IMG/VR virus record: IMGVR_UViG_3300046804_003209
Span: 1-39,240 of that record
Length of the DNA stretch: 39,240 nt
Reading direction: 5' to 3' (one strand)
Origin: a virus
The translations under genes and the position numbers were made by a program. Below, one piece after another: positions 6,631 through 36,492 of the stretch. The notes under the pieces are model-generated. The model saw only the letters and a list, made by a program, of their open reading frames with translations, had not been told where the DNA came from and searched no databases. Position 1 is the stretch's first letter. Each line of letters starts with the position of its first letter.

Positions 6631-7264
6631 AGATACATCTCATCTTGGAGGACACTATAACTTTACATCCATGTTTTTAGATGAATTGGATTTCATTAAG
6701 AACAAATATAATATCAAGAGTATGTTAGATATAGGTTGTGGTCTTGGTGGTATGGTTGAGTTTGCAAACTATATCGATATCTACAGCATTGGTGTTGATG
6801 GTGATAGCACTCTTGGTCAAAAACCATATGTAAAATATCATGACTTTAATGAAGGTCAATTGGAGTTGGATGAGAAGTTTGATCTTGTATATTCAATAGA
6901 ATTTTTAGAACACGTCTACGAACAATATATGCCTAATTACATGCCTTTGTTCCAAAAAGCTAATTATGTTTTTGTTTCATGTGCAACACCAGGACAGGGT
7001 GGATATCATCATGTAAATGAACAATATAGAGATTATTGGATTGAGAAATTCGATGCGTATAATTTTTCATACGATCAAAATACTGTTGAAGAAATTATTG
7101 AAATAAGTAAAAATAAAGACTTCATGAAAAAGAATATGATGTTTTTTATTAACAACGAACCACATAAAAATATAGAATATAAAAAACCATTTGAAATAGA
7201 GAACATAGATAATATTATTCATGGAAGCATTTCTGAGTTTGTCAGACGTGGTGGAAAGGTTTAA
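6623..7264 (+). CDS. Class I SAM-dependent methyltransferase
   Basis: A 213-residue methyltransferase. MLDIGCGLGG is the SAM-binding motif I, IGVDGD the acidic motif after strand 2, FDLVYSIEFLEHV the post-II motif and YVFVSCATPGQGGYHHVN the region after strand 4/5. The His pair and NEQYRDYWIEKF segment resemble methyltransferases of glycan clusters. It overlaps the upstream glycosyltransferase by eight bases and is followed ten bases later by the radical SAM gene. The target is unknown. Confidence 0.83.
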   Translation: MTKDTSHLGGHYNFTSMFLDELDFIKNKYNIKSMLDIGCGLGGMVEFANYIDIYSIGVDGDSTLGQKPYVKYHDFNEGQLELDEKFDLVYSIEFLEHVYEQYMPNYMPLFQKANYVFVSCATPGQGGYHHVNEQYRDYWIEKFDAYNFSYDQNTVEEIIEISKNKDFMKKNMMFFINNEPHKNIEYKKPFEIENIDNIIHGSISEFVRRGGKV

Positions 7265-7274
7265 GGGGAACAAC

Positions 7275-8363
7275 ATGCACGAGATGGAAACCAAAGTTCA
7301 AGGTAGAAGCTATACAAGTAATCATGTTAAGCTTCTCAAGCATATGGATAGGCTTTCTATTATCCAAAAAGGGGGACGACCAAAGCCAGTAATGTTTCAT
7401 ATGTCACCTTGCAATCCTTGCAACTTGACTTGCTCTTTCTGCTGCTTTGCAAATCGCAACTTGAAGGAAATGCTTACTAAGGAACAAATGATCAAAGCTG
7501 TTGATCAGTTTGCAGAACTTGGTGTTCTTGGTATGGAATTCACAGGTGGTGGTGAGCCTACACTTCACCCTGATCTTAACTTTATGATTGATTACATTCA
7601 TGCTAAAGGAATTAAGATTGGTATTGTTACCAACGGTTCTCGTCTAAAGAAGATTAAGAACTGGGATAAGGTATCATGGGTACGTCTTGGTATGTACGGA
7701 TTTGATGAAGGCTATGATTATGATCTTTCTGTGTTTGAAGGTCTTACTAACATTGAAATCTCAGCTGCATATGTGTGGGATGGTGCATTAGAGACGTCTA
7801 CCAATCCTAACATTACTGGACAATGGACAGAATCAAATAGCGAACTTGCAGGTAAGAAGATTCTTGCAAAGAATACCTATAAGGAAGAAAACTTTATTCG
7901 TATGCTTAAGTGGGTAGAAGAGAAGAAGATACCTTGCCGCATTGCATTTAATGCTATCAAGGATCCAAAGGAAACTGCTAAGGACATTGAAAAGATTCGT
8001 GGCATTCTTAACAACTTCGAAGCAGAGAATGGTCCATTAAAGTTTGCATTCCTTTCAGACTTTAACTTTAAAGGTACTCGTCGTAACGATAACTGCTACA
8101 TGCATATGGTTAAGCCTTGCGTGTTTACTGATGGTAATGTTTATGTTTGCCCATCAGCAGAACTTGCACCTGAGAATGGTTACCACGTTAATGCTGAGTT
8201 TAAGATTGCAGACATTGATGGTATCTTAGATTACTATAACTCAATTGATGGTGATATTAGTACAAAGCGTAGACATCATGCTTGCTCATTCTGTAAGTAT
8301 GCTCTTCAAAACGAACTTATTGATGACATCGTAACAGAAACAAGACACAACGAATTTGCTTAA
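7275..8363 (+). CDS. Radical SAM/SPASM-domain enzyme
   Basis: A 362-residue radical SAM protein. The iron-sulphur motif CxxxCxxC is C49-N-L-T-C53-S-F-C56, preceded by extra cysteines at 46 and followed by C57. FTGGGEPT is the SAM-binding GGE motif and IGIVTNGS a core strand. The C-terminal third holds a SPASM/Twitch-like cysteine set (VKPCVF, VYVCPS, C337-S-F-C340) for auxiliary clusters. The start at 7275 has AGGGG at 7264-7268; upstream in-frame ATG 7221 lies inside the previous gene. Such enzymes modify peptides, sugars or cofactors; the glycan context favours a sugar or lipid intermediate but this is a guess. It is not QueE-like in length or motif spacing. Confidence 0.85.
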   Translation: MHEMETKVQGRSYTSNHVKLLKHMDRLSIIQKGGRPKPVMFHMSPCNPCNLTCSFCCFANRNLKEMLTKEQMIKAVDQFAELGVLGMEFTGGGEPTLHPDLNFMIDYIHAKGIKIGIVTNGSRLKKIKNWDKVSWVRLGMYGFDEGYDYDLSVFEGLTNIEISAAYVWDGALETSTNPNITGQWTESNSELAGKKILAKNTYKEENFIRMLKWVEEKKIPCRIAFNAIKDPKETAKDIEKIRGILNNFEAENGPLKFAFLSDFNFKGTRRNDNCYMHMVKPCVFTDGNVYVCPSAELAPENGYHVNAEFKIADIDGILDYYNSIDGDISTKRRHHACSFCKYALQNELIDDIVTETRHNEFA

Positions 8364-15424: not shown

Positions 15425-16081
15425 ATGAGTGCAAACATAGTAGCTGTAACAAGACCAACCAGTGGTCTTGGAATTGACGACTTCATTGCATATGTTGCAA
15501 GAGTATCAAATCCTTCTAATCAAAACAATACTGAGACATCTGGTCGTTTAATTAAATACCTTGTTAATAATAAACATTGGTCTCCTTTTGAACTTGTTCA
15601 TGTTGTTATGGAAATTGAAACAACTCGTGACATTGCTAGACAGATTCTTCGTCATCGTAGTTTCACATTTCAGGAGTTTAGTCAACGTTATGCAGATCCA
15701 ACCAAAGATCTCGGGTTCACCACTCGTGAAGCGCGTCTCCAAGATACAAAGAATAGACAAAACTCAATTGAATTCAATGATGAAGAACTCCAAGGAACAT
15801 GGGAGCTTCTCCAACAAAACTCAATCAACTACTCTCGAGAGATCTATAAATGGGCAATTGAAAAAGGAATTGCCAAGGAACAAGCTCGAGCAGTCCTTCC
15901 AGAAGGTCTTACTGTTTCTCGCATGTATATGTCTGGCTCTCTTCGTTCTTGGATTCATTATTGCCAACTAAGATGTGCCAATGGTACACAGAAAGAACAT
16001 CGTGAGATTGCTATAGATTGTTGGTATAAGATAATGGAATTGTTTCCTAGCCTAAAAGAACTAAATCTAATAGATAAATGA
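15425..16081 (+). CDS. thyX: Flavin-dependent thymidylate synthase
   Basis: A 218-residue ThyX, which makes dTMP from dUMP with FAD, NADPH and methylene-tetrahydrofolate. The family motif RHRx7S is present as R76-H-R to Ser86 (RHRSFTFQEFSQR), preceded by HWSPFELVHVVMEIET and followed by YADP. The C-terminal EQARAVLPEGL and SLRSWIHYCQLR segments carry the dUMP-binding Arg residues. The length is normal. It supports phage DNA synthesis together with NrdJ further downstream. It is preceded without gap by two small phage genes. Confidence 0.96.
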   Translation: MSANIVAVTRPTSGLGIDDFIAYVARVSNPSNQNNTETSGRLIKYLVNNKHWSPFELVHVVMEIETTRDIARQILRHRSFTFQEFSQRYADPTKDLGFTTREARLQDTKNRQNSIEFNDEELQGTWELLQQNSINYSREIYKWAIEKGIAKEQARAVLPEGLTVSRMYMSGSLRSWIHYCQLRCANGTQKEHREIAIDCWYKIMELFPSLKELNLIDK

Positions 16082-17376: not shown

Positions 17377-17382
17377 TATGCG

Positions 17383-17413
17383 AACTCAAGCTATACGCTT
17401 GAGTTGTTTTTTT
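17383..17413 (+). terminator. Terminator-like hairpin in the pstS leader
   Basis: A perfect nine-base stem AACTCAAGC/GCTTGAGTT with loop TATAC, one G, then seven T residues (17407-17413). It lies downstream of the putative -10 and directly before the pstS ribosome site (AAGGAG, 17418-17423). It may attenuate transcription, block readthrough from upstream, or stabilise the 5' end of the mRNA. Confidence 0.75.
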
Positions 17414-17428
17414 AACCAAGGAGTTAAC

Positions 17429-18352
17429 ATGTTAAAGAACATTCTTGCCGTAATTGGATCTATGTTTATTGCTACTTCAGCCTTTGCAGGTGAAGTTAAT
17501 GGTGCAGGCGCTACATTCCCACAACCAATTTATGTAAAGTGGGCAGATAGTTTTAAGAAAGAAACTAACAACTCTGTAAATTATCAGGGAGTTGGTTCTG
17601 GTGCAGGTATTAAGCAGATTGATGCAAAGACAGTTATTTTCGGTGCTACTGATATTCCAGTAAAGCCAGAGGACCTTGAAAAGAAAGGTCAAGTACAGTT
17701 TCCTATGATCGTTGGTGGTATCGTTCCTATCTTTAATCTTAAGGATGTAGAACATCTTACACTTACCACTGACATCTTAGCAAAGATTTATTCAGGTAAG
17801 ATTACAAAGTGGAACGACAAAGAAATTGCTGAGATCAATCCAGGTGTAAAGCTTCCTGATATCGGTATTATTAAGATTCGCCGTTCAGATGGTTCAGGTA
17901 CAACATGGAACTTCACAAAGTATCTTTCAGAAGCAAATGCTGATTGGAAGAAAAACTATGGTTTTGGTTCTACAGTAGAATGGGCTGGAAACACAATAGG
18001 TGGTAAGGGTAATGATGGCGTTGCTAACAACGTAAGCCAAACTAATGGTTCAATCGGTTATGTCGAATATGCGTTTGCAAAACAAAATGATTTGCAAGTT
18101 GCAGATATGATTGGTACAGATGGTAAGAAAGTATCACCAGGTCTTAAGGCATTTCAGACAACTTGGCCAATGGTTGCAACTTCATATATCGTAATGCATA
18201 AGCAGAACGATGATTCAGCTGCAGTTGCTATTGCAAAGAAATTTTTTGAATACGGACTTTCACACGACAAAGATGCCGAGGCATTGGACTATATTCCTCT
18301 TACAGCTGCACAGAAAGCTGATGTGAAGAAAACCCTTCAAAACATTCAGTAA
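17429..18352 (+). CDS. pstS: Periplasmic phosphate-binding protein PstS
   Basis: A 307-residue ABC-transporter phosphate-binding protein. A 20-residue signal peptide (TSAFA cut) precedes GAGATFPQPIYVKWAD, VGSGAGIKQI, FGATDIP, RRSDGSGTTWNFT and GGKGNDGVA, the phosphate-contacting loops of PstS. It delivers phosphate to the host PstCAB permease. The length is slightly below E. coli PstS because of a shorter C-terminal lobe. The open frame extends to 17378, but that part overlaps the leader hairpin; ATG 17429 starts the signal peptide with a strong ribosome site. Phage pstS is known from aquatic phages of phosphate-poor water. Confidence 0.95.
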   Translation: MLKNILAVIGSMFIATSAFAGEVNGAGATFPQPIYVKWADSFKKETNNSVNYQGVGSGAGIKQIDAKTVIFGATDIPVKPEDLEKKGQVQFPMIVGGIVPIFNLKDVEHLTLTTDILAKIYSGKITKWNDKEIAEINPGVKLPDIGIIKIRRSDGSGTTWNFTKYLSEANADWKKNYGFGSTVEWAGNTIGGKGNDGVANNVSQTNGSIGYVEYAFAKQNDLQVADMIGTDGKKVSPGLKAFQTTWPMVATSYIVMHKQNDDSAAVAIAKKFFEYGLSHDKDAEALDYIPLTAAQKADVKKTLQNIQ

Positions 18353-18722: not shown

Positions 18723-19748
18723 ATGAAGACGTTTTCACATTTTATAGAAGAAAGTTATGCGTTAGAACTAACTGAAGGTAGTAAACCTATCCAATCTCGT
18801 GGAATGTCTGCAGAAAGACATACTAAGCAGTACATTACTCCATATCTTCCTGGAAATGAAAAACACGCAGAAGGCACTCATACGATGGCTTCTGACCATG
18901 AAGGATTGAGTTCAGGTGACAAAGTAACAATTCATAGTCATGAAGTCGTTGATGGTGTTCATCATGCAGTCGTGTCAAAAGCTGGATCTAACAAAAAAAT
19001 TAAGATTCCTACAAACAAATTAATCAAGCCAACAACTAGAAAAAATAAAGGTTTAGAGCAAGAAGCTGGTCTAGTTAAACATCTTAATGGTCACGGATTG
19101 ATGCAGGGTGGTGGTGCTGGTTCTACAGCAGGAAATGATTTTCATCTATTAGATAAGCGTGGTGGTAAAACTAGAAAAATTTCAGGTTCTGCTGGACATA
19201 ACACCGAGAATGAATTAGGTATTCATGGTGAACATAAATCAGACATTAAGTCTACTGCATTTGGTCAAATTACTCTTTCTAGACATCCTAAAACAGGCAA
19301 ATGGCATATCGATGATAAGGCAAGAGCTAAGCGTCCTGAATATGCAAAGCACGTTGAAAGTGCTACAATAACAGTTAACGGTAAAAAGAAAAACCTTATT
19401 GACCATCTCAATGAAACAGAACCTCATGGTACTTCTAATAAGTCAGGTTTCCATTCTGATGAAACACATAACTTAGAACCTGCTCATTCGTATATGAGAG
19501 ATCATCATGTTGACGTTGTTCACATTGACTCGCATGGTACTTTCAGAGCTGGTCATAGTGCACAAAACGATCGTCATAAGACTGGACTTCCTTCAATGGA
19601 AGGAACTGGTCGTTTTAGAGTTAGACAAAAGACTGATAATGTCAATAAAAGAACTGTCCAATTTGAAGTAAAAAAATTAAATAAGTCTAATGTTAACATT
19701 GGTACTGATGAAGGTGCTAATGAAATGAAAAAGAGACTTGGACACTAA
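18723..19748 (+). CDS. Capsid-targeted protein with PD-(D/E)XK-like nuclease motifs
   Basis: A 341-residue protein. It starts MKTFSHFIEES, like the T4 internal-protein capsid-targeting sequence (MKTYQEFIAEA), with a gp21-type cleavage pattern I-E-E/S at residues 8-11. The centre reads GLEQEAGLV (Glu114), AGNDFHLLD (Asp139), then GEHKSD (Glu170-x-Lys172) and FGQITL (Gln182), the order Glu, Asp, ExK, Q of PD-(D/E)XK nucleases. The rest is His- and Lys-rich. I infer a nuclease packaged in the head; the motif call is by eye and could fail. It begins the late module and stops two bases before the next gene. Confidence 0.55.
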   Translation: MKTFSHFIEESYALELTEGSKPIQSRGMSAERHTKQYITPYLPGNEKHAEGTHTMASDHEGLSSGDKVTIHSHEVVDGVHHAVVSKAGSNKKIKIPTNKLIKPTTRKNKGLEQEAGLVKHLNGHGLMQGGGAGSTAGNDFHLLDKRGGKTRKISGSAGHNTENELGIHGEHKSDIKSTAFGQITLSRHPKTGKWHIDDKARAKRPEYAKHVESATITVNGKKKNLIDHLNETEPHGTSNKSGFHSDETHNLEPAHSYMRDHHVDVVHIDSHGTFRAGHSAQNDRHKTGLPSMEGTGRFRVRQKTDNVNKRTVQFEVKKLNKSNVNIGTDEGANEMKKRLGH

Positions 19749-19749
19749 T

Positions 19750-20880
19750 ATGAAAACATTTCTCAATTATATTATAGAAGCACGTGGTCCAGCATCATCT
19801 GTAGATGAAGAAGAACTTACTCATCTCACTCATGCAAAAGAATTACATTATTCAGATCCGTCACATGCTAAGACTGGTTTGGATCTCATTAAACAATTTC
19901 ACAATCATAGACAAGGTAAGCCTAGCACAATTAAAGCATCACTAAAGACTGATGGTGGTGCTTCAGTTCATATCATTCATGATGAACATGGTGTAGGTGT
20001 TACTGATAAGCATAGATGGGCAAGAGGTATTGTTGCAAGAACACCTCAGGAAGTAGATCAGCATTTTGGTCATGCTCCTGAATATGCAGCATCAATGAAG
20101 CATCTTCTTGCACACGGCCATGAATTTGTTAACAAAGGTCATCATGTTCAAGGTGACTTGTTACATACACCAAAAGACAAGGTTGAATCTAAGGCTGGTA
20201 AGATCTCTATTACTCCAAATAGAATCACTTATAAAGCAAAGACGAAAGCACCACTAGGTGTTGCTATTCATACAGAGATTCATGGAAGAACAGCAAAGGC
20301 ACTATCAAAGGGTGCTTTGAGACATAGCGATCATGTATTTGTTCCAGAAGCAGAATATAAATCACATCCTGAATCTTATTCTAAAACAGATAGAGATGCA
20401 ACAGAACATCACTTAGCTGCTGCTGAGAAACTACTTAAGGGTCACTCAACGAAGCATTTGACACCAGAACATGTTGCTCATTTTACAACATATATGAATA
20501 GCACAACACGTAACAATACTCTACCTACAGTAGAAGGCTATAAGAAGCATCTACAAGCAGTTGGTGAAAAAAAGGCATCTAAATTGAAGACTGCATCTGC
20601 TCAACAAAGAGTTCGTGATCAACATGCAGCTATGATTTCTCATATTGATAAACATGCAGAACACTTTCAAAAGTCAATCGACATTCACCATCATCTAGAA
20701 CAAGCAACTGAGCATGTACTTAAGGGTGTAGAACATCCTGATATGGAAACATCGATCGATGGCAAGAAGTCACAAGGTGAAGGTGTTGTTCTTCAAAGAA
20801 ACGGAAGACCAGTAGCTAAATTGGTTCCAAGAAAAGTATCAACAGCAATATTGAATAATCCTAGATTTGGAAGAGGATAA
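19750..20880 (+). CDS. Capsid-targeted protein with ATP-dependent ligase-like nucleotidyltransferase motifs
   Basis: A 376-residue protein of a family I have seen in marine T4-like phages (I believe DUF6267). It starts MKTFLNYIIEARG, close to the T4 capsid-targeting sequence, with I-I-E/A cleavage possible at residue 10. Ligase-superfamily motifs follow in order: motif I K66-T-D-G69 after a hydrophobic strand, QGDLLH (134-139) at motif III position, VAIHTEIHG (171-179) at IIIa, EGVVLQ (344-349) at motif IV, and AKLVPR (356-361) at motif V. The adenylated Lys would be Lys66. A long His/Lys-rich helical insertion (about 215-325) separates IIIa from IV. DNA or RNA ligase activity is inferred. 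Confidence 0.6.
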   Translation: MKTFLNYIIEARGPASSVDEEELTHLTHAKELHYSDPSHAKTGLDLIKQFHNHRQGKPSTIKASLKTDGGASVHIIHDEHGVGVTDKHRWARGIVARTPQEVDQHFGHAPEYAASMKHLLAHGHEFVNKGHHVQGDLLHTPKDKVESKAGKISITPNRITYKAKTKAPLGVAIHTEIHGRTAKALSKGALRHSDHVFVPEAEYKSHPESYSKTDRDATEHHLAAAEKLLKGHSTKHLTPEHVAHFTTYMNSTTRNNTLPTVEGYKKHLQAVGEKKASKLKTASAQQRVRDQHAAMISHIDKHAEHFQKSIDIHHHLEQATEHVLKGVEHPDMETSIDGKKSQGEGVVLQRNGRPVAKLVPRKVSTAILNNPRFGRG

Positions 20881-20888
20881 ATTTTGTA

Positions 20889-22196
20889 ATGGCACAGTAT
20901 CGTGTAGACTCTAATAAGTTTCTTGCCGACAGTACAACAATGTTTGAAGTTGTACAGCTTGCTGATAGATACGGCAATCTTATTGGAGGTGCTAATCCAT
21001 CTGGTATGGCAGTAGATGCTTTCGGTCGTATGAGAGTATCCAATCCTCAAACACTATTTGAGTCGTTTCATCGCTACCATGATAATGGTAAATGGTCTAC
21101 GGCTAATTCCGCTACTGCAACAGTTGTATTAGACTCCAATGCATCTTTAATGCAACTTACTGTTGATACGACATCAGGTGCATATGCATATAGAGAAACA
21201 AACAGAGTGTTTGCATATCAACCTGGTAAGTCATTACAAATATTTGAATCCTTTGTGTTTAATCCTGCACAAGCAAACTTAGTACAAAGAATTGGATATT
21301 TTGGTTCAGATAATGGTTTATATCTAGAACAAGCTAACACAACTATTAATTTAGTAAAAAGAAGTTCTTCTAACGGTACATTAGTAGAGACAAGAGTACC
21401 ACAATCTCAATGGAATATGGATACTCTTTTAGGTAATGTAAATTCATCACCATCTCATATAACTCTAGATCTTACTAAAACTCAAATTTTATTTACTGAT
21501 ATTGAATGGTTAGGTGTCGGCACAGTAAGACAAGGATTTGTGATTGACGGTCAACTAATACATTGTCATTCTTGGAATCATGCTAATAATTTAGATAATA
21601 CATATATGACTACAGCATGTCTTCCTGTAAGACAAGAAATATTTAATATAGGAACGACTGCTGCAAATAGCACATTAAAGTGCATATGCTCTACTGTAAT
21701 ATCTGAAGGTGGTTATGCATCGAGAAGTAGTAGACAAAGAACACTAGGACAGGATCCAGCAAATACAATTACAATGGCTACTGCTGGTACTTACTACCCT
21801 CTAGTTTCTATAAGATTAAATCCAGTTCATTTAGACGGTATAGCAGTACCTAGAAATATATCAGTTTTACCTACTGCACAAGGTAATTATCGTTTTAAGC
21901 TAATACAGGGTGCAACTATTAACGGTGCAGTATGGACTGATTTTGCCTCTGATTCTGTTGTTCAATATAATGCTAATACATCTGCAACTTTAACAGGTGG
22001 TACTACAATTACTTCAGGTTACGTACCAGTCACTGCACAAGCAACAGGTGTTATAAATTTAGATCCGGATTTGTTTAGATTTCAGTTAGAAAGAAATAGT
22101 TTTACTAGCACTCCTACTACTTTTACATTGGCTATTACATCAGATGGAGCAACTGATACAGCAGTTGGATCAATGGACTGGGAAGAAATAACTTAA
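20889..22196 (+). CDS. Virion structural protein (conserved in aquatic T4-like phages)
   Basis: A 435-residue beta-rich protein without signal peptide. The N-terminal segment (GGANPSGMAVDAFGRMRVSNP, LFESFHRYHDNGKWS) is a pattern seen in structural proteins of aquatic T4-like phages. It is Ser/Thr/Asn-rich with no catalytic motif. The late module context supports a virion role, possibly head or tail surface. Exact location is unknown. Confidence 0.65.
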   Translation: MAQYRVDSNKFLADSTTMFEVVQLADRYGNLIGGANPSGMAVDAFGRMRVSNPQTLFESFHRYHDNGKWSTANSATATVVLDSNASLMQLTVDTTSGAYAYRETNRVFAYQPGKSLQIFESFVFNPAQANLVQRIGYFGSDNGLYLEQANTTINLVKRSSSNGTLVETRVPQSQWNMDTLLGNVNSSPSHITLDLTKTQILFTDIEWLGVGTVRQGFVIDGQLIHCHSWNHANNLDNTYMTTACLPVRQEIFNIGTTAANSTLKCICSTVISEGGYASRSSRQRTLGQDPANTITMATAGTYYPLVSIRLNPVHLDGIAVPRNISVLPTAQGNYRFKLIQGATINGAVWTDFASDSVVQYNANTSATLTGGTTITSGYVPVTAQATGVINLDPDLFRFQLERNSFTSTPTTFTLAITSDGATDTAVGSMDWEEIT

Positions 22197-22225: not shown

Positions 22226-24514
22226 ATGCCAGAATACAACGATCCACAATCAAATAAGGTAACTTCTGATACCAAGCCTTTGAAAAAAGGTAAGACAGAA
22301 GTTGTTAAGGACATTATTTCCAAAGGAAAAACAATGACTGGCCAAAAGCCAGATGAAATCATTTTGAATCCAGTCCTTGAAGCTAAGGAAAAAAGAGCTG
22401 TATTTGCATTTGGTCGTTTTAATCCTCCTACAACTGGACATGAAAAATTAATCCATAAAGTTGAGGATACTGCAAAGTCACAGGGTGCTGAAGCTCATAT
22501 CATTGCTTCGCATACTGAAGGTAATGCAAAGAATCCACTTCCTAAGGAAAAGAAAGTAGAGTATCTTAAAAAGATTGCATCAGAAGGTACTAATGTTACA
22601 GGTTCTTCTTCTGAACATCCTACTCTTCTTCATCATCTTGCCAACCTTCATAAGAATGGTATTCACCATATTACTATGGTTGCAGGGGACGATAGAGTAA
22701 AAGAATATCATGATTTGATTCACAAATATAACGGTGTTGAAGGTCGTCACGGTACATTCAACTTCAAGTCAATAAATGTTGTTTCAGCTGGTGCTAGAGA
22801 TCCTGATGCAGAAGGTGCAGAAGGTATGTCTGGAACTAAGATGCGTGAACATGCTCGTTCTGGAAACACAAAAGAATTTAAAAAAGGCTTACCAAAAGCA
22901 TTGCATCCTCATGCAAAAGAAATTATGAATCAAATTAAATCAGTTAAAGAAGAGGTAGACGATTTATTTGATAATTTCATTATAGAAACTGCTATCGATA
23001 AGATTGGTCAAATATACGATCAGGTTATTCAAGAAGCATATGATGAAGACAAAGAAAATGCTAAGATTAAGAGCGTTAGTCATTCTAACACTCATGACAG
23101 AGATGATGGAAAATCAGAAAGAACTCTTCTTTATAAAAACGATACTCCTGGTGAACCAAAATCATCCAAAGTAAAAGAAGATATCAATAATACATTTGAA
23201 GCCTGGGTAGATGATGAAAACCCTGAGCCAAAGAATAGAGAAGTTGTTAATCGTCACGGTCAAGATCGTAAAAAAATTGTATTAGTACCACGTGGTGATG
23301 CTGATAGAAAAGATTGTGATAGACCATACCGTCAACAAGAAGTACAAAAGAAAATTGTAGACGAAGGTAAAAAACTTACACCATGGGAAAAAATGACTAG
23401 AGCTATGCCTAGACTCAAGGATAGTGAAGAAAGAGCACAAGCTGCAAAAGCTGGTCTTCAACAAGCTGGTAAAGATTACCAAGCTATTCTCGATAGAGAA
23501 GCAGAAGCAAAAAAAAAGACTAATGAATCTGTAAATTCTATAGGTGGTGTTAGAGGTATGGGTCACGTATCAGGAAGTCCTGATGGTGACGGCAGTGGTT
23601 ATGTTGGTCAAAACATAGCTGATGCTGATACTCGTGACAATATTATAAAAAATCACATTAACACTCATTTTGCATTACATATGAGTGATCAGAAGGTTAC
23701 TAAAGAAGAAAAACTAAACGAAGATCTACGTAAGTGGTTTAAAGATAAGTGGGTCCGCATGGACACCAAAGGTAACATAAAGGGCGATTGTGCAAGAGAG
23801 CCTGGTGAGGGTAAACCAAAATGTCTCCCTCTTGCAAAAGCACGTGCTATGGAAAAGGAAAAAAGAGCAGCTGCTGCACAAAGAAAAAGAAGAGAAGATC
23901 CTGTAGCAGATCGTCCTGGTAAAGGTGGTGCTCCTGTTAATGTAAGAACAGAAGAATTTGAATACATTGAAGAAAAGAATAAACCAACTAATCCTTCACT
24001 ATGGGCTAGAGCTAAATCATTAGCTAGAAGTAAATTTGATGTTTATCCATCAGCTTATGCTAATGGATGGGCTGCAAAATGGTATAAGTCAAAAGGTGGT
24101 GGTTGGAAATCAGTCAACGAAGATAATAATGTAATTAAGCAATTAGAAGATAAACTAAATGTTGCTACTGATAAGTCATATGATGGCATCGATCAAATAA
24201 TGAGACAGGTTGCAAATGAAAATAACATTGATGTACATGACTTACATGATATGTGGGTAAAGGAAACAGGTATTACTCCTGATCAGTATGTTAAGGAAGC
24301 AAGAATATATTTTGGCAAGAATAGGGAAAGATATGCTGCTCAAAGAAAACCACTTTCTCCTGAAGCAGAAAATATACTCAAGAATGCTGAAACTAAAATA
24401 TCACAATCTGCTGTTCCTTCAAAACAAGCTATAAAAGATCGTCAAACTAAAACTCGTTCAGACTACGAAAAAGAAATTCCTTCAGATTACAAACCTAAAC
24501 TTCATAAGGATTAA
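22226..24514 (+). CDS. Mosaic late protein with HIGH-type nucleotidyltransferase domain
   Basis: A 762-residue mosaic. The N-terminal 210 residues form a cytidylyl/NMN-adenylyltransferase-like domain: FAFGRFNPPTTGH (63-72, the HIGH-like motif), VAGDDR, and SGTKMR (202-207) in place of ISSTxxR. A long acidic/basic low-complexity middle follows (about 250-470), then DLRKWFKDKWVRMD and GKPKCLPLAKARAM, seen in many phage proteins, and KFDVYPSAYANGWAAKWYKSKGGGWK, another widespread phage module. The last 120 residues are helical. It lacks the MKTF start. It could adenylate or cytidylate a nucleotide or protein; a virion component is inferred from position. Confidence 0.6.
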   Translation: MPEYNDPQSNKVTSDTKPLKKGKTEVVKDIISKGKTMTGQKPDEIILNPVLEAKEKRAVFAFGRFNPPTTGHEKLIHKVEDTAKSQGAEAHIIASHTEGNAKNPLPKEKKVEYLKKIASEGTNVTGSSSEHPTLLHHLANLHKNGIHHITMVAGDDRVKEYHDLIHKYNGVEGRHGTFNFKSINVVSAGARDPDAEGAEGMSGTKMREHARSGNTKEFKKGLPKALHPHAKEIMNQIKSVKEEVDDLFDNFIIETAIDKIGQIYDQVIQEAYDEDKENAKIKSVSHSNTHDRDDGKSERTLLYKNDTPGEPKSSKVKEDINNTFEAWVDDENPEPKNREVVNRHGQDRKKIVLVPRGDADRKDCDRPYRQQEVQKKIVDEGKKLTPWEKMTRAMPRLKDSEERAQAAKAGLQQAGKDYQAILDREAEAKKKTNESVNSIGGVRGMGHVSGSPDGDGSGYVGQNIADADTRDNIIKNHINTHFALHMSDQKVTKEEKLNEDLRKWFKDKWVRMDTKGNIKGDCAREPGEGKPKCLPLAKARAMEKEKRAAAAQRKRREDPVADRPGKGGAPVNVRTEEFEYIEEKNKPTNPSLWARAKSLARSKFDVYPSAYANGWAAKWYKSKGGGWKSVNEDNNVIKQLEDKLNVATDKSYDGIDQIMRQVANENNIDVHDLHDMWVKETGITPDQYVKEARIYFGKNRERYAAQRKPLSPEAENILKNAETKISQSAVPSKQAIKDRQTKTRSDYEKEIPSDYKPKLHKD

Positions 24515-30131: not shown

Positions 30132-30521
30132 ATGGATAAAGTCGACGAATTTAACTTTTTATTATTTGCTGCTAAACATTATGACAATCCCCAGTGCTAT
30201 GATACTGTAGAATTTTATGATGATTTAAAAAGAATCAAATATATCAAAAGACTTTTAAATAGATATGTTGAGGAAGGCGATTTAAAAGAACGTCTTATTC
30301 TTAACCACATCATAATTCTCAACAATGTGTTTGGTCCTACTCCAACTGTAAAAATGCTATTTTTAAAATGTAAGGGTTTAGAATCCCAACTAAAATCGTT
30401 TCTTATGTTTCTTAATGTTCTTCCTGATAAGGTAGAAAATATTGGTATAGAAAACAGAACTATAAATACTAAAGAAATTTCCCATGATGAAAAAATTTTA
30501 GAAGAACTTAGGAAAATCTAA
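30132..30521 (+). CDS. Conserved T4-like phage protein of unknown function
   Basis: A 129-residue helical protein with KHYDNPQCYDTVEFYDDLKRIKYIKRLL (two parts of one conserved region), GDLKERLILNHIIILNNVFGP and LNVLPDKV. This pattern is common in aquatic T4-like phages beside structural genes; its function is unknown. Start and stop abut the neighbours (TAATG at the end). Confidence 0.7.
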   Translation: MDKVDEFNFLLFAAKHYDNPQCYDTVEFYDDLKRIKYIKRLLNRYVEEGDLKERLILNHIIILNNVFGPTPTVKMLFLKCKGLESQLKSFLMFLNVLPDKVENIGIENRTINTKEISHDEKILEELRKI

Positions 30522-31885
30522 TGGCAGGCGTAGTAGATAGCGTTTTAACATATCAATTTCTAAGAAAACTTACAACTCCTTTTAACAAGATGCCTGCCTA
30601 TAAGTATAATCTTATTGACGATAAAGGCAACTTCCTAAAAGATAGAAATAGATTTACACCCCAAGAAAGACAGATTCTTGGTATATTTGATGTAATGGTG
30701 ATAAACTTAAAGAAGATAATTTCTAAAATTCCTGGTGGTGCAACTAGACTTGGAACTATAGCTGCAGCTATGTTTCTTTTAAAGTCTAAACCTATCAGAG
30801 AAGATATATCATATGAAGAACTTGATGCATTAGTCGAACAGGAATTTTATCAAATATTTGATACTATTAAACATTTGAATGAGGATGGTGTTGCTGCAAT
30901 CAACACAGCAGGTTCTGGTGACATAGCTGGACTTGGTCAACCTCCTGGATCATACAAAGGTGAGCCTGGTGTTTCTGTAGCAGCTCAAAAGAAACATCAG
31001 AAAAAAGCATCTGATAGTTTACAACCTTTCCTTGCTCAGCTTAGAAGAGCAAAAGCAATGACACAATCAGAACAGATTGTTCAAGGATCGCAAAATACAG
31101 TTGGTGTACAAACAAAGAAGGCAAGTAAGTCTTCTACAGAAAACATCACAGTACAAAATAAAGTAGCAGAGAGTTTAACAGAAGAAACTACTCTACAATA
31201 TCACAAACAATTAAATCCTAAAATTTGGGATACAGTTGGTGAACTTAAACAAGATGTAAAAGATAAGTTGATACAGATAGCTGATGCCTGGGTTGCTTTT
31301 GCAAAAATATCTCCAGACTTAATTTATGATGTTGTAATTACAGGTGGTAATGTTAATTACAATTATACACCAAACTCAGATATTGATTTACATGTTGTTA
31401 TGTCTAGATCAGCAATTAATCCTGATAGAGCATTTGTTGATGAATATCTTCAAGATAAAAAAATTCTTTGGACTCTACAACATCCAGACATTTCTATCTA
31501 TGGCTATCCAGTAGAGCTGTATGCTCAAGATACTGATGAAAAACCTCATGCCAATCAAGGCGTTTATTCTTTGATTCAGAATAGATGGATAGCAAGACCT
31601 CAGATGCTAGATCTTAACTTTGAAAACGATTATCATCTACAGAAGAAAGTTCAATTTTACAAAGATATGATTGACAAAATGGTTGACGATAATGCTAGTG
31701 ACGACACTATAGAAATTCTCAAAGATAAGATTAAAAAAATGCGTGGTGACTCAATTGCCAAAGAAGGCGAGTTTGCATTTGGCAATCTTATTTTCAAAGA
31801 ACTTCGTAATGCTGGTTACCTAGACAAACTTAATGACTATAAGAAAACTAAACAAGATAAAATTTTATCATTAGGAAGACCTTGA
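30521..31885 (+). CDS. Phage structural-type protein fused to a pol-beta-like nucleotidyltransferase domain
   Basis: A 454-residue protein. The N-terminal 110 residues (VVDSVLTYQFLRKLTTPF, KIPGGATRLGTIAA) match a conserved phage protein type that ends in a hydrophobic helix near 80-95. A linker rich in Gly, Ala and Lys follows (130-220). The C-terminal part holds GGNVNYNYTPNSDIDLHV (Gly275-Gly276 to Asp287-x-Asp289), the G-[GS]-x(9-13)-D-x-[DE] signature of the polymerase-beta-like superfamily. Substrate is unknown; possibilities include nucleotide or protein modification. It is followed by the spanin pair. Confidence 0.6.
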   Translation: MAGVVDSVLTYQFLRKLTTPFNKMPAYKYNLIDDKGNFLKDRNRFTPQERQILGIFDVMVINLKKIISKIPGGATRLGTIAAAMFLLKSKPIREDISYEELDALVEQEFYQIFDTIKHLNEDGVAAINTAGSGDIAGLGQPPGSYKGEPGVSVAAQKKHQKKASDSLQPFLAQLRRAKAMTQSEQIVQGSQNTVGVQTKKASKSSTENITVQNKVAESLTEETTLQYHKQLNPKIWDTVGELKQDVKDKLIQIADAWVAFAKISPDLIYDVVITGGNVNYNYTPNSDIDLHVVMSRSAINPDRAFVDEYLQDKKILWTLQHPDISIYGYPVELYAQDTDEKPHANQGVYSLIQNRWIARPQMLDLNFENDYHLQKKVQFYKDMIDKMVDDNASDDTIEILKDKIKKMRGDSIAKEGEFAFGNLIFKELRNAGYLDKLNDYKKTKQDKILSLGRP

Positions 31886-34278: not shown

Positions 34279-36492
34279 ATGGTTGCAGTTTACAAAGATA
34301 CAAAGAAGCTACTTTCTGATGCCAAGTTTTATGAAGGTTACGCTCGTTACATAGAAGAAGAAAATCGTTACGAAACATGGTCAGAAGCTGTTAACCGTGT
34401 AATGAAAATGCACTCTGGTTTTTATGCAGACAAGATGTCATCTAAGTTGATGGCTTATATGGATGAAGCTGCAACTGCATATAAACAAAAGTTGGTGCTT
34501 GGAGCACAACGTGCTTTACAATTTGGTGGTGAGCAACTATTCAAGCATCAGATGAGAATGTATAACTGCACATCATCATATGCAGATCGTCCTGAGTTCT
34601 TTGGTGAAGTATTCTATATTCTTCTTTGTGGCGCAGGTGCTGGATTCTCAGTTCAAGCTCATCACGTTGGTAAGCTTCCTAAACTTATTCATCGTACCAA
34701 GGCTCCAAAGCTACACACCGTAGAAGATAGTATTGAAGGATGGGCAACTGCACTTGATGTTCTTATGTCTTCGTTCTTTGAGAACGGAGGTAAGTATCCT
34801 GAGTATGCAGGACGTAAGGTGGCATTTGATCTTTCTCTTGTTCGTCCAAAAGGTTCTAAGATTTCTGGTGGATTCAAGGCACCAGGACCTGAACCTCTTC
34901 GTCGTTCACTCGATCGCATTGAATATATTCTAACCGGACTTACTCTTAATGAGAAGTCATCATCTCTAAGGCCAATCCATGTTTACGATATTGTTATGCA
35001 TGCTGCTGATGCAGTTCTCGCTGGCGGGGTCCGCCGTTCTGCTACTATCTGTCTTTTCTCTGCAGACGATCAAGAGATGGCATCTGCTAAGACTGGTAAT
35101 TGGTATATTGATAATCCACAGCGTGGTCGTTCTAACAATAGTGCTGTTATTGTTCGAAATGAAATAACTAAAGAGCAATTTGCAAACCTTATGACATCAA
35201 TTAAGCAGTTTGGTGAACCAGGTTTCTTCTTTGTTGATGATAAAGATATTACAACAAATCCATGCGTTGAAATCGGTATGTATCCTCAGATTGATGGTAA
35301 GTCTGGATGGCAGGGATGCAATCTAACTGAGATTAATGGTGGTATGTGTGATAATGAAGAAACGTTCTATAAGGCATGCCGTGCTGGTGCAATCCTAGGA
35401 ACACTACAAGCTGGTTATACAGACTTCAAGTTTCTTTCACCAACATCAAAAGAAATCTTTGATCGTGAAGCACTCTTAGGTGTTTCTATCACTGGTTGGA
35501 TGAATAATCCAAAGACATTGTTTGATGAGAAGATTCTTGCAAAGGGTGCAGAGATTGTAAAGCAGACAAATAAAGAAGTAGCAGAACTACTTGGTATTAA
35601 TCCAGCTGCTCGTACTACTTGTGTTAAGCCATCAGGTAATGCTTCAGTTCTTCTTATGACTGCATCTGGTATACATGCTGATCACTCACCAATGTATATT
35701 CGTAACATTCAGTTAAACAAAGATACTGAAGTTGCAAAACTGATCAAAAGAATCAATCCTAACATGGTAGAAGAGTCAGCATGGTCAGCTGGTAAGACTG
35801 ATTATGTTATTTCTTTCCCTGTTGTTGCTAAGGAAGGATCTATCTTTAAGGATGATTTGATTGGTATTAAGCATTTAGATCTTATTAAGAAGGCACAGGA
35901 GTTCTGGGTAAATGCTGGAACAAATATTGAAAGATGCGCTCATCCTGGCATACGCCACAATGTTTCTAACACTGTCATTGTTGACAACTGGGATGCTATT
36001 GAGGAGTACGTATATAATAATCGCAATTACTTTGCTGGTATTTCATTTCTACCAATGACAGGTGATAAAGATTATTTCCAAGCACCTAATACACAAGTAC
36101 TTAATGCAGCTCAATTAACTGAGAAGTATGGTGCAGGTGCAATTATGGCATCTGGTCTTATTGTAGAAGCATTAAAGTCATTTGATAATCTTTGGCTTGC
36201 ATGTATGACAGCAAATGGTTACGGTGAAGATCTTACAGCAGATAATCATCAGAACACTTTAAAGAAGGATTGGATTCGCAGATTCAAAAAGTTTGCAACT
36301 AACTACTTCAACGGTGATATTAAGAAAGCTGAGTATTGCTTTAAGGATGTTTATTTACTTCATAAGTGGGAAAAGATTCAACAAACTATTTCCGATATCA
36401 AGTGGGAAGACGAGCTTAAAGAAGTCAAATATATAGATGTAGATACTATCGGATCTGCTGCTTGTGTTGGTGGTGGATGCGAACTGTTCTAA
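34279..36492 (+). CDS. nrdJ: Adenosylcobalamin-dependent (class II) ribonucleotide reductase
   Basis: A 737-residue monomeric class II enzyme resembling Lactobacillus ribonucleoside-triphosphate reductase. RYETWSEAV near the start is typical, MYNCTSS holds Cys97, GAGAGFSVQ the substrate loop, NPCVEIG Cys329 and Glu331 (thiyl radical and base), GCNLTEI Cys347 (pair of Cys97), and the tail ACVGGGCELF has Cys729 and Cys734 for re-reduction. It needs vitamin B12 but no oxygen or second subunit. It makes deoxynucleotides for phage DNA. The downstream glutaredoxin may supply electrons. The C-terminal 16 bases overlap the next small gene. Confidence 0.92.
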   Translation: MVAVYKDTKKLLSDAKFYEGYARYIEEENRYETWSEAVNRVMKMHSGFYADKMSSKLMAYMDEAATAYKQKLVLGAQRALQFGGEQLFKHQMRMYNCTSSYADRPEFFGEVFYILLCGAGAGFSVQAHHVGKLPKLIHRTKAPKLHTVEDSIEGWATALDVLMSSFFENGGKYPEYAGRKVAFDLSLVRPKGSKISGGFKAPGPEPLRRSLDRIEYILTGLTLNEKSSSLRPIHVYDIVMHAADAVLAGGVRRSATICLFSADDQEMASAKTGNWYIDNPQRGRSNNSAVIVRNEITKEQFANLMTSIKQFGEPGFFFVDDKDITTNPCVEIGMYPQIDGKSGWQGCNLTEINGGMCDNEETFYKACRAGAILGTLQAGYTDFKFLSPTSKEIFDREALLGVSITGWMNNPKTLFDEKILAKGAEIVKQTNKEVAELLGINPAARTTCVKPSGNASVLLMTASGIHADHSPMYIRNIQLNKDTEVAKLIKRINPNMVEESAWSAGKTDYVISFPVVAKEGSIFKDDLIGIKHLDLIKKAQEFWVNAGTNIERCAHPGIRHNVSNTVIVDNWDAIEEYVYNNRNYFAGISFLPMTGDKDYFQAPNTQVLNAAQLTEKYGAGAIMASGLIVEALKSFDNLWLACMTANGYGEDLTADNHQNTLKKDWIRRFKKFATNYFNGDIKKAEYCFKDVYLLHKWEKIQQTISDIKWEDELKEVKYIDVDTIGSAACVGGGCELF

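Follow-up and report, generated by a model that had tools for sequence, protein, structure and literature searches.

A DUF6267 protein of a T4-related phage is a predicted ligase-like nucleotidyltransferase with a putative head-packaging tag

Do some phages carry a ligase-like enzyme in their heads and deliver it together with the genome? The question is raised by an open reading frame (ORF) at positions 19750 to 20880 (+) of a 39,240-nucleotide (nt) viral sequence (IMG/VR record IMGVR_UViG_3300046804_003209; the whole stretch is termed the window herein), which a first-pass annotation had interpreted as a head-packaged DNA/RNA ligase-like nucleotidyltransferase. The ORF is open, and its translation begins MKTFLNYIIEARG. 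The ATG at 19750 lies one base past the stop of the upstream gene, with a TTG 12 nt further 5'; we regard this ATG as the natural start, and the N-terminal tag described below begins with it. The protein has an isoelectric point of 9.5 (median over 44 window ORFs, 6.25) and matches the Pfam family DUF6267, a family of unknown function, with 97.4 bits (cut-off, 27), as well as PHROG phrog_455. In the open-access literature, no paper on DUF6267 or PF19782 was found. The features of the locus are compiled in Table 1.

Table 1. Features of the DUF6267 locus and its neighborhood in the window
Feature	Position	Strand	Basis
Upstream gene with the same tag (MKTFSHFIEE), unknown protein of 341 aa	18723..19748	+	No Pfam family; His-rich, basic
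DUF6267 ligase-like nucleotidyltransferase (predicted)	19750..20880	+	376 aa; Pfam PF19782 E 1.5e-27, model, ligase-fold matches
Tag MKTFLNYIIE, capsid-targeting-like; predicted prohead protease cut after E10 (between YIIE and AR)	19750..19779	+	T4 pattern, clade, gp23 likeness
Motif I, K66-T-D-G69 (predicted adenylated Lys66)	19945..19956	+	K, D and G invariant in 71/71; K66 directly after strand 62-65
Motif III, QGDLLH 134-139	20149..20166	+	D136 in 71/71; strand 131-138
Motif IIIa-like, VAIHTEIHG 171-179	20260..20286	+	H174 invariant, T175 at least 90%; strand 169-178
Helical insertion between motifs IIIa and IV, about residues 205-325	20362..20724	+	Five helices 212-323, high pLDDT
Motif IV, EGVVLQ 344-349	20779..20796	+	E344, G345 and V347 invariant in 71/71
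Motif V, AKLVPR 356-361, one conserved Lys (K357)	20815..20832	+	K357 in 71/71, V359 at least 90%
Virion structural protein family, next gene 3'	20889..22196	+	phrog_1645 'head and packaging' E 1.1e-118
HIGH-type (cytidylyltransferase-like) nucleotidyltransferase, untagged here	22226..24514	+	phrog_3041 E 5.7e-58

DUF6267 is widespread in phages. Among isolates, it occurs in Methylophilales phage Melnitz, Pelagibacter phage HTVC008M, Stenotrophomonas phage DLP_6, and many cyanophages. With the S-CRM01 protein as query, DUF6267-like sequence was detected in 466 of 50,697 phage records. Most of these are cyanophages, and almost every one of the matches listed (60 of the 466) carries the annotation hypothetical. 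Searches of viral contigs yielded 47 and then 74 loci of the window clade, at least 80 Melnitz-like loci, 64 S-PM2-like loci, and 54 S-CRM01-like loci. A selection of 92 proteins extracted from these four groups was thinned at 93% identity to 70 and, with the window protein added, gave an alignment (A2) of 71 rows that are 18 to 85% identical. All 71 match DUF6267, the family that includes the cyanophage gene cluster T4-GC71.

All of the motif strings claimed in the first-pass annotation are present at their positions and in the order given there. Fifteen residues of the window protein are invariant in all 71 rows: L26, K66, D68, G69, D136, P156, N157, G170, H174, N250, E344, G345, V347, K357, and F373. 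In 30 of 30 close relatives, K66, D68, G69, Q134-G135-D136, H174-T175-E176, E344-G345, and K357 are identical, and this conservation among close and diverse relatives alike indicates that the motif strings are not due to chance. Lack of conservation of Lys66 in homologues had been named beforehand as an outcome that would refute the ligase reading; the residue is kept in 71 of 71. A short S-SM1 member that is not part of A2 retains KWDG, EGFV, and VKLVD, with QAD where the others have QGD, and KWDG and EGFV are kept in six of six further cyanophage members.

Judged from the sequences, the order and spacing of the invariant residues fit motifs I, III, IIIa, IV, and V as these are defined for ligases. 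The KxDG of motif I, with its invariant lysine, and the EGxV of motif IV are both present as in the superfamily. In the ligase/capping superfamily, motif III usually has Glu and motif V has two Lys residues. DUF6267 departs from this pattern: D136 (Asp) replaces the Glu in 71/71 rows, motif IIIa contains His-Thr, and motif V has a single Lys, with Val at the second Lys position in at least 90% of the rows. ATP-dependent DNA ligases and mRNA guanylyltransferases also contain a C-terminal OB domain with motif VI. According to sequence and model, an OB-type C-terminal domain is absent from the window protein, which ends 19 residues past K357 with one short helix. The large insertion between motifs IIIa and IV, already flagged as atypical, is real: it comprises about 115 residues and is helical in the models of both the window protein and its S-CRM01 homologue.

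The AlphaFold2 model of the window protein (pLDDT 88.4, pTM 0.87) places K66 just after a strand and D136 and K357 in strands. When compared using VIA, ligases made up 50 of the 50 matches listed. The best of these was a Naegleria RNA ligase (Z 8.3, 183 residues, 3.9 Å, 22-370 aligned onto 143-339), and the list further contained RNA editing ligase 1 (Z 7.5), T4 Rnl2 (Z 6.5 to 6.9), T4 Rnl1 (Z 6.1 to 6.5), and DNA ligases (Z 6.5 and below). The gap between RNA and DNA ligases is only about 1.5 to 2 Z units, and a Z near 8 falls in a range for which the tool itself advises caution. A Foldseek search of the PDB gave 143 matches at E ≤ 10 (best E, 6.5e-3; TM-scores low), the best 50 of which were all ligases or chains of nonhomologous end joining (NHEJ) ligation complexes; at E ≤ 0.001, neither this model nor that of the S-CRM01 homologue had a match. 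In a viral structure library, the best matches of the window model were other DUF6267-like proteins, with RNA ligases from rank 18. The S-CRM01 model (pLDDT 87.6, pTM 0.82), built on an alignment of 44 rows that are all also in A2, returned ligases in 49 of the 50 VIA matches listed (best Z, 8.0); its Foldseek result was mixed, with CorA in the first two rows, 15 ligases among the best 50, and low TM-scores. Based on the two models, a ligase nucleotidyltransferase fold is likely for the DUF6267 protein, but not certain. The other outcome named beforehand as refuting, a fold unrelated to the ligase/mRNA-capping superfamily, was not what the models predicted.

Sequence profiles did not provide this link. 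The window protein had no match to PF09414 (Rnl2-type RNA ligase) at E ≤ 1, and no ligase family was among the best 25 of the 57 families matched by the 71 rows. An hhalign comparison of DUF6267 with 28 relatives of T4 Rnl2 was not significant (E 0.36, probability 0.2%) and scored hardly better than the controls, a reversed alignment (E 0.44) and gp23 (E 0.45); only motif IV was in register. The gp23 control was a poor one because it contained two wrong short frames (98 and 150 amino acids). Searches of the PDB with phmmer and hmmsearch retrieved no ligase, and their best matches look like chance. Weak kinase-phosphatase matches in these searches, which span a largely helical stretch, were dismissed. 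Compared with the Rnl2/Rnl5-type RNA ligases (T4 Rnl2, RNA editing ligase 1, Naegleria RNA ligase), the window protein thus has in common the predicted nucleotidyltransferase fold and the motif order I-III-IIIa-IV-V, but it differs in the motif III Asp, the helical insertion, the head tag, and the missing C-terminal domain, and it lacks a significant profile match. The ligase-like part of the original annotation is supported by fold and motifs, whereas the sequence-profile link, the motif III Glu, the second motif V Lys, and an OB-type domain were not found.

The second part of the annotation, a capsid-targeting start, was approached with a strict pattern, M..[FY]..[FYLIWVM][ILVMF].E. A capsid-targeting sequence of about 10 residues at the N terminus of T4 internal proteins is described in PMC9958956. 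In T4, only 2 of 1,748 candidate starts fitted the pattern, those of ipII and ipIII, both annotated as internal head proteins. Over eight phage records, there were 21 matches in 16,398 candidate starts. The two matches in Melnitz are DUF6267, with the tag MINFSKYITE, and the gene before it, the only match in DLP_6 is DUF6267, and one of three in S-SM1 is the T4-GC190 cytitidyltransferase; three members of the window clade (G001, G002, and G004) together had 13 matches, including three DUF6267 genes and four HIGH-type nucleotidyltransferases. HTVC008M gave no match; the start of its DUF6267 protein reads MYNDLLVED. False positives do occur, since 8 of the 21 matches (2 of the 3 in S-SM1) are on genes not linked here to packaging. 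A slightly looser pattern applied to 77 related loci matched 180 times on the gene strand and never on the opposite strand (988 and 555 ORFs of at least 80 amino acids, respectively).

Within the family, all window-clade rows (27 of 27) carry the tag, as do 19 of 22 Melnitz-like rows. Of the 22 other, cyanophage-type rows, which were walked to their true starts and scored by eye, 2 have a strict tag (L224 and L232), 5 have shifted or longer variants (L231, L262, L271, L269, and L270), and 15 have none. The S-PM2-type and most marine cyanophage members lack it, and in untagged members the enzyme starts directly at a conserved H-L-E-H region. By this comparison, the tag is a removable prefix, as would be expected of a targeting signal. 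The sequence at its end, (F/Y)(I/L)xE followed by A, resembles the ends of gp23 propeptides (FLTE at residue 65 in T4, a known cut; FLSE in Melnitz, YITE in G004, and LLSE in G001). Both the gp21 protease (PF03420) and gp23 were found in 8 of 12 records, including the clade members G001, G002, and G004. PF03420 was not seen in G003, G005, G006, and G007, contigs whose completeness is unknown; the window, too, is only a fragment, of 39 kb.

Further support comes from S-SM1, in which the T4-GC190 gene overlaps the DUF6267/T4-GC71 gene. The T4-GC190 cytitidyltransferase was reported in S-SM1 virions by mass spectrometry, while T4-GC71 is not named, in the portion of PMC3037559 that was available. 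T4-GC190 belongs to the unrelated HIGH-type family; it has the same tag as the window protein, its gene neighbors a DUF6267 gene, and it is likewise a nucleotidyltransferase, an activity only predicted for the window protein. Its homologues in further cyanophages carry the same tag in five of six cases. The window protein also resembles T4 IpII and IpIII in its N-terminal pattern, the protease-like site at the end of this pattern, and its basic character; unlike these small internal proteins, it has a predicted enzyme fold. Taken together, the tag, the T4 control, and S-SM1 support head packaging of the window protein, which remains an inference without virion proteomics for any DUF6267 protein.

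The neighboring genes share some of these properties. Starts of the form MKTF..(F/Y)I.E occur in the window only at 18723 and 19750, in adjacent genes, and the two encoded proteins are the most His-rich of the 44 window ORFs (8.8% and 10.4%, respectively; median, 2.3%), and both are basic. The HIGH-type nucleotidyltransferase gene downstream and the DUF6267 gene match different parts of phrog_455, which suggests that the two are fused in other phages. S-PM2 indeed encodes DUF6267 together with a cytidylyltransferase-like domain in a single protein. The members of DUF6267/T4-GC71 differ: those of the window clade and the Melnitz-like group are head-tagged, with those of the window clade also His-rich, whereas the S-PM2-type members are untagged and fused to a HIGH-type nucleotidyltransferase. 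A HIGH-type motif was present within 5 kb downstream in 25 of 39 hand-chosen DUF6267 loci with enough sequence. Across the 77 loci, 188 tagged starts fell into 20 clusters, which besides DUF6267 and HIGH-type nucleotidyltransferases include unknown His-rich proteins, a GH108 lysozyme-like protein, and a kinase-like protein. The median His content was 6.4% in 14 tagged clusters and 2.7% in 116 untagged ones (one-sided P = 0.018); this comparison is approximate, as DUF6267 shares the largest tagged cluster with other genes and DUF6267 fragments are among the untagged.

We propose, with a probability of roughly 55%, that the window protein belongs, as a divergent member, to the covalent nucleotidyltransferase (DNA/RNA ligase, capping) superfamily and that it is packed into the head of a T4-related phage and seals nucleic acid ends; activity, substrate, and packaging are inferred. 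By analogy to T4 and S-SM1, the 10-residue tag would draw the protein into the prohead core, a gp21-type protease would trim it after E10, and the basic enzyme would be packed with the DNA and injected. In the cell, as fold and motifs suggest, Lys66 would accept a nucleotide (AMP donated by ATP being the most likely), after which the enzyme may seal broken ends, most likely of RNA or of nicked duplex met at entry, with the helical insertion possibly providing the binding surface that the C-terminal domain supplies in other ligases. A packaged strand-sealing enzyme for RNA or nicked duplex is favored since RNA ligases have the nearest folds. The protein could still have another transferase role, chiefly in view of the paired HIGH-type enzymes. 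The earlier interpretation as a ligase-like, head-packaged enzyme is on the whole supported, as far as fold, motifs, and tag can do so.

One such role, which we can put forward only tentatively, is that of a packaged nucleotidyltransferase that does not seal strands, in which the Lys66 adduct would pass the nucleotide to an RNA end (as a cap), a protein, or a small molecule, perhaps acting with the HIGH-type nucleotidyltransferase encoded beside it. The absence of an OB-type or other known ligase C-terminal domain, the motif III Asp, and the single motif V Lys would suit this role, as would the HIGH-type enzyme fused or adjacent in S-PM2, S-SM1, and six of six further cyanophages; some HIGH-type phage enzymes make NAD+ (PMC7824862). 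The closest folds are nevertheless RNA and DNA ligases, and adjacency is no proof of a shared pathway. A catalytically dead nucleotidyltransferase fold, injected as an inhibitor or DNA-binding protein like T4 IPI, is very improbable: T4 internal proteins are diverse antidefense proteins with only the tag in common (PMC3012670), but a dead enzyme would not be expected to retain the motif residues in 71/71 rows, drawn from very different phages and including tagged and untagged members.

It is also unlikely, though less so, that the protein is synthesized in the infected cell as a replication or repair ligase and represents the ligase that these T4-like phages are missing, with packaging secondary or absent. 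DUF6267 adjoins uvsX, gp41, mazG, or some of these in S-PM2, S-CRM01, S-SM1, and HTVC008M, and S-PM2-type members are untagged. A profile search of 12 DUF6267 phages and T4 detected PF09414 and PF09511 in T4 only, PF01653 in none, and PF01068 in T4, DLP_6, and S-CRM01. Ten of the 12 DUF6267 phages (six of the 12 are possibly incomplete contigs) thus have no other recognizable ligase, as they match none of the four families, three of which are matched by T4. A review reports that g30 ligase homologues were not found in cyanomyoviruses; it leaves distant homologues open and considers true absence, with the host ligase filling in, more probable (PMC2984593). On the other hand, all 27 window-clade rows are tagged, the window gene lies beside a head-family gene and not beside replication genes, and DLP_6 and S-CRM01 carry both DUF6267 and PF01068. 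In a bolder scheme, to which we give about a one-in-four chance, DUF6267 may be the unrecognized ligase of Kyanoviridae-type T4-like phages without g30 and Rnl ligases, encoded beside replication genes in cyanophages, and tagged and injected in the window clade and Melnitz-like phages, often with a tagged HIGH-type nucleotidyltransferase, as a premade nucleic acid repair (perhaps NAD+-restoring) kit before phage gene expression.

A ligase-type enzyme in DUF6267 would directly suggest a candidate for the ligase that, according to a report, cyanomyoviruses do not have (PMC2984593). No paper on a cyanomyovirus DNA ligase or nucleotidyltransferase was found in the open-access literature, and nothing on a packaged phage ligase in open-access titles and abstract openings; these searches gave no paper on the combination proposed here, in which a family of unassigned function unites a fold and a targeting principle that are each already known. 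If true, a packaged ligase would be an unusual first-minute repair or counterdefense tool, ready at DNA entry. The internal proteins of aquatic T4-like phages are little known, and the tag offers a sequence handle for listing those that are head-packed and probably injected.

Several other tagged genes were observed. An S-CRM01 protein close to DUF6267 (L051:6556-9021, 821 amino acids) has a head tag, MISFDQFLSEKK, and a weak PF00069 match (E 4e-6) and is possibly a packaged kinase. In the tagged protein L023:8381-10204, a weak P-loop match follows a HIGH-type nucleotidyltransferase domain, much as in NadR, and a packaged NAD+ salvage enzyme is possible. L072:3614-4210 encodes a tagged GH108 lysozyme-like protein (PF05838, E 7e-14), suggesting a putative head-packed muralytic enzyme. 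Directly 5' of the Melnitz DUF6267 gene, a tagged protein of 361 amino acids without a Pfam family (L049:6932-8017) contains, by eye, a D...SxK stretch like that of PD-(D/E)XK nucleases. Untagged His-rich proteins at L016:160, L006:4458, and L011:1634 have a common N.YA.FI..Q-like N terminus, perhaps a second form of the tag.

Four loci, L042 (6001-7145), L043, L044, and L045, have a split DUF6267 gene, with the break after residue 144 and hence between motifs III and IIIa. The first frame of L042 ends at a TGA that overlaps an ATG (ATGA), and this ATG opens a second frame, MTTTTTTPNRITYK. The four loci come from different samples, and their first frames all end at the same residue. L078 agrees with these loci in match length (1,142 nt), the only basis for comparing it. 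Elsewhere in the window, the product of the ORF at 30521-31885 weakly matches a Pol-beta-type nucleotidyltransferase family (PF01909, E 5e-4) and strongly matches the unannotated phrog_36119. The window further encodes a radical SAM protein (7221-8363), a thymidylate synthase (15425-16081), a PstS-like phosphate-binding protein (17378-18352, by eye), and a ribonucleotide reductase with a B12-type insertion domain (34279-36492).
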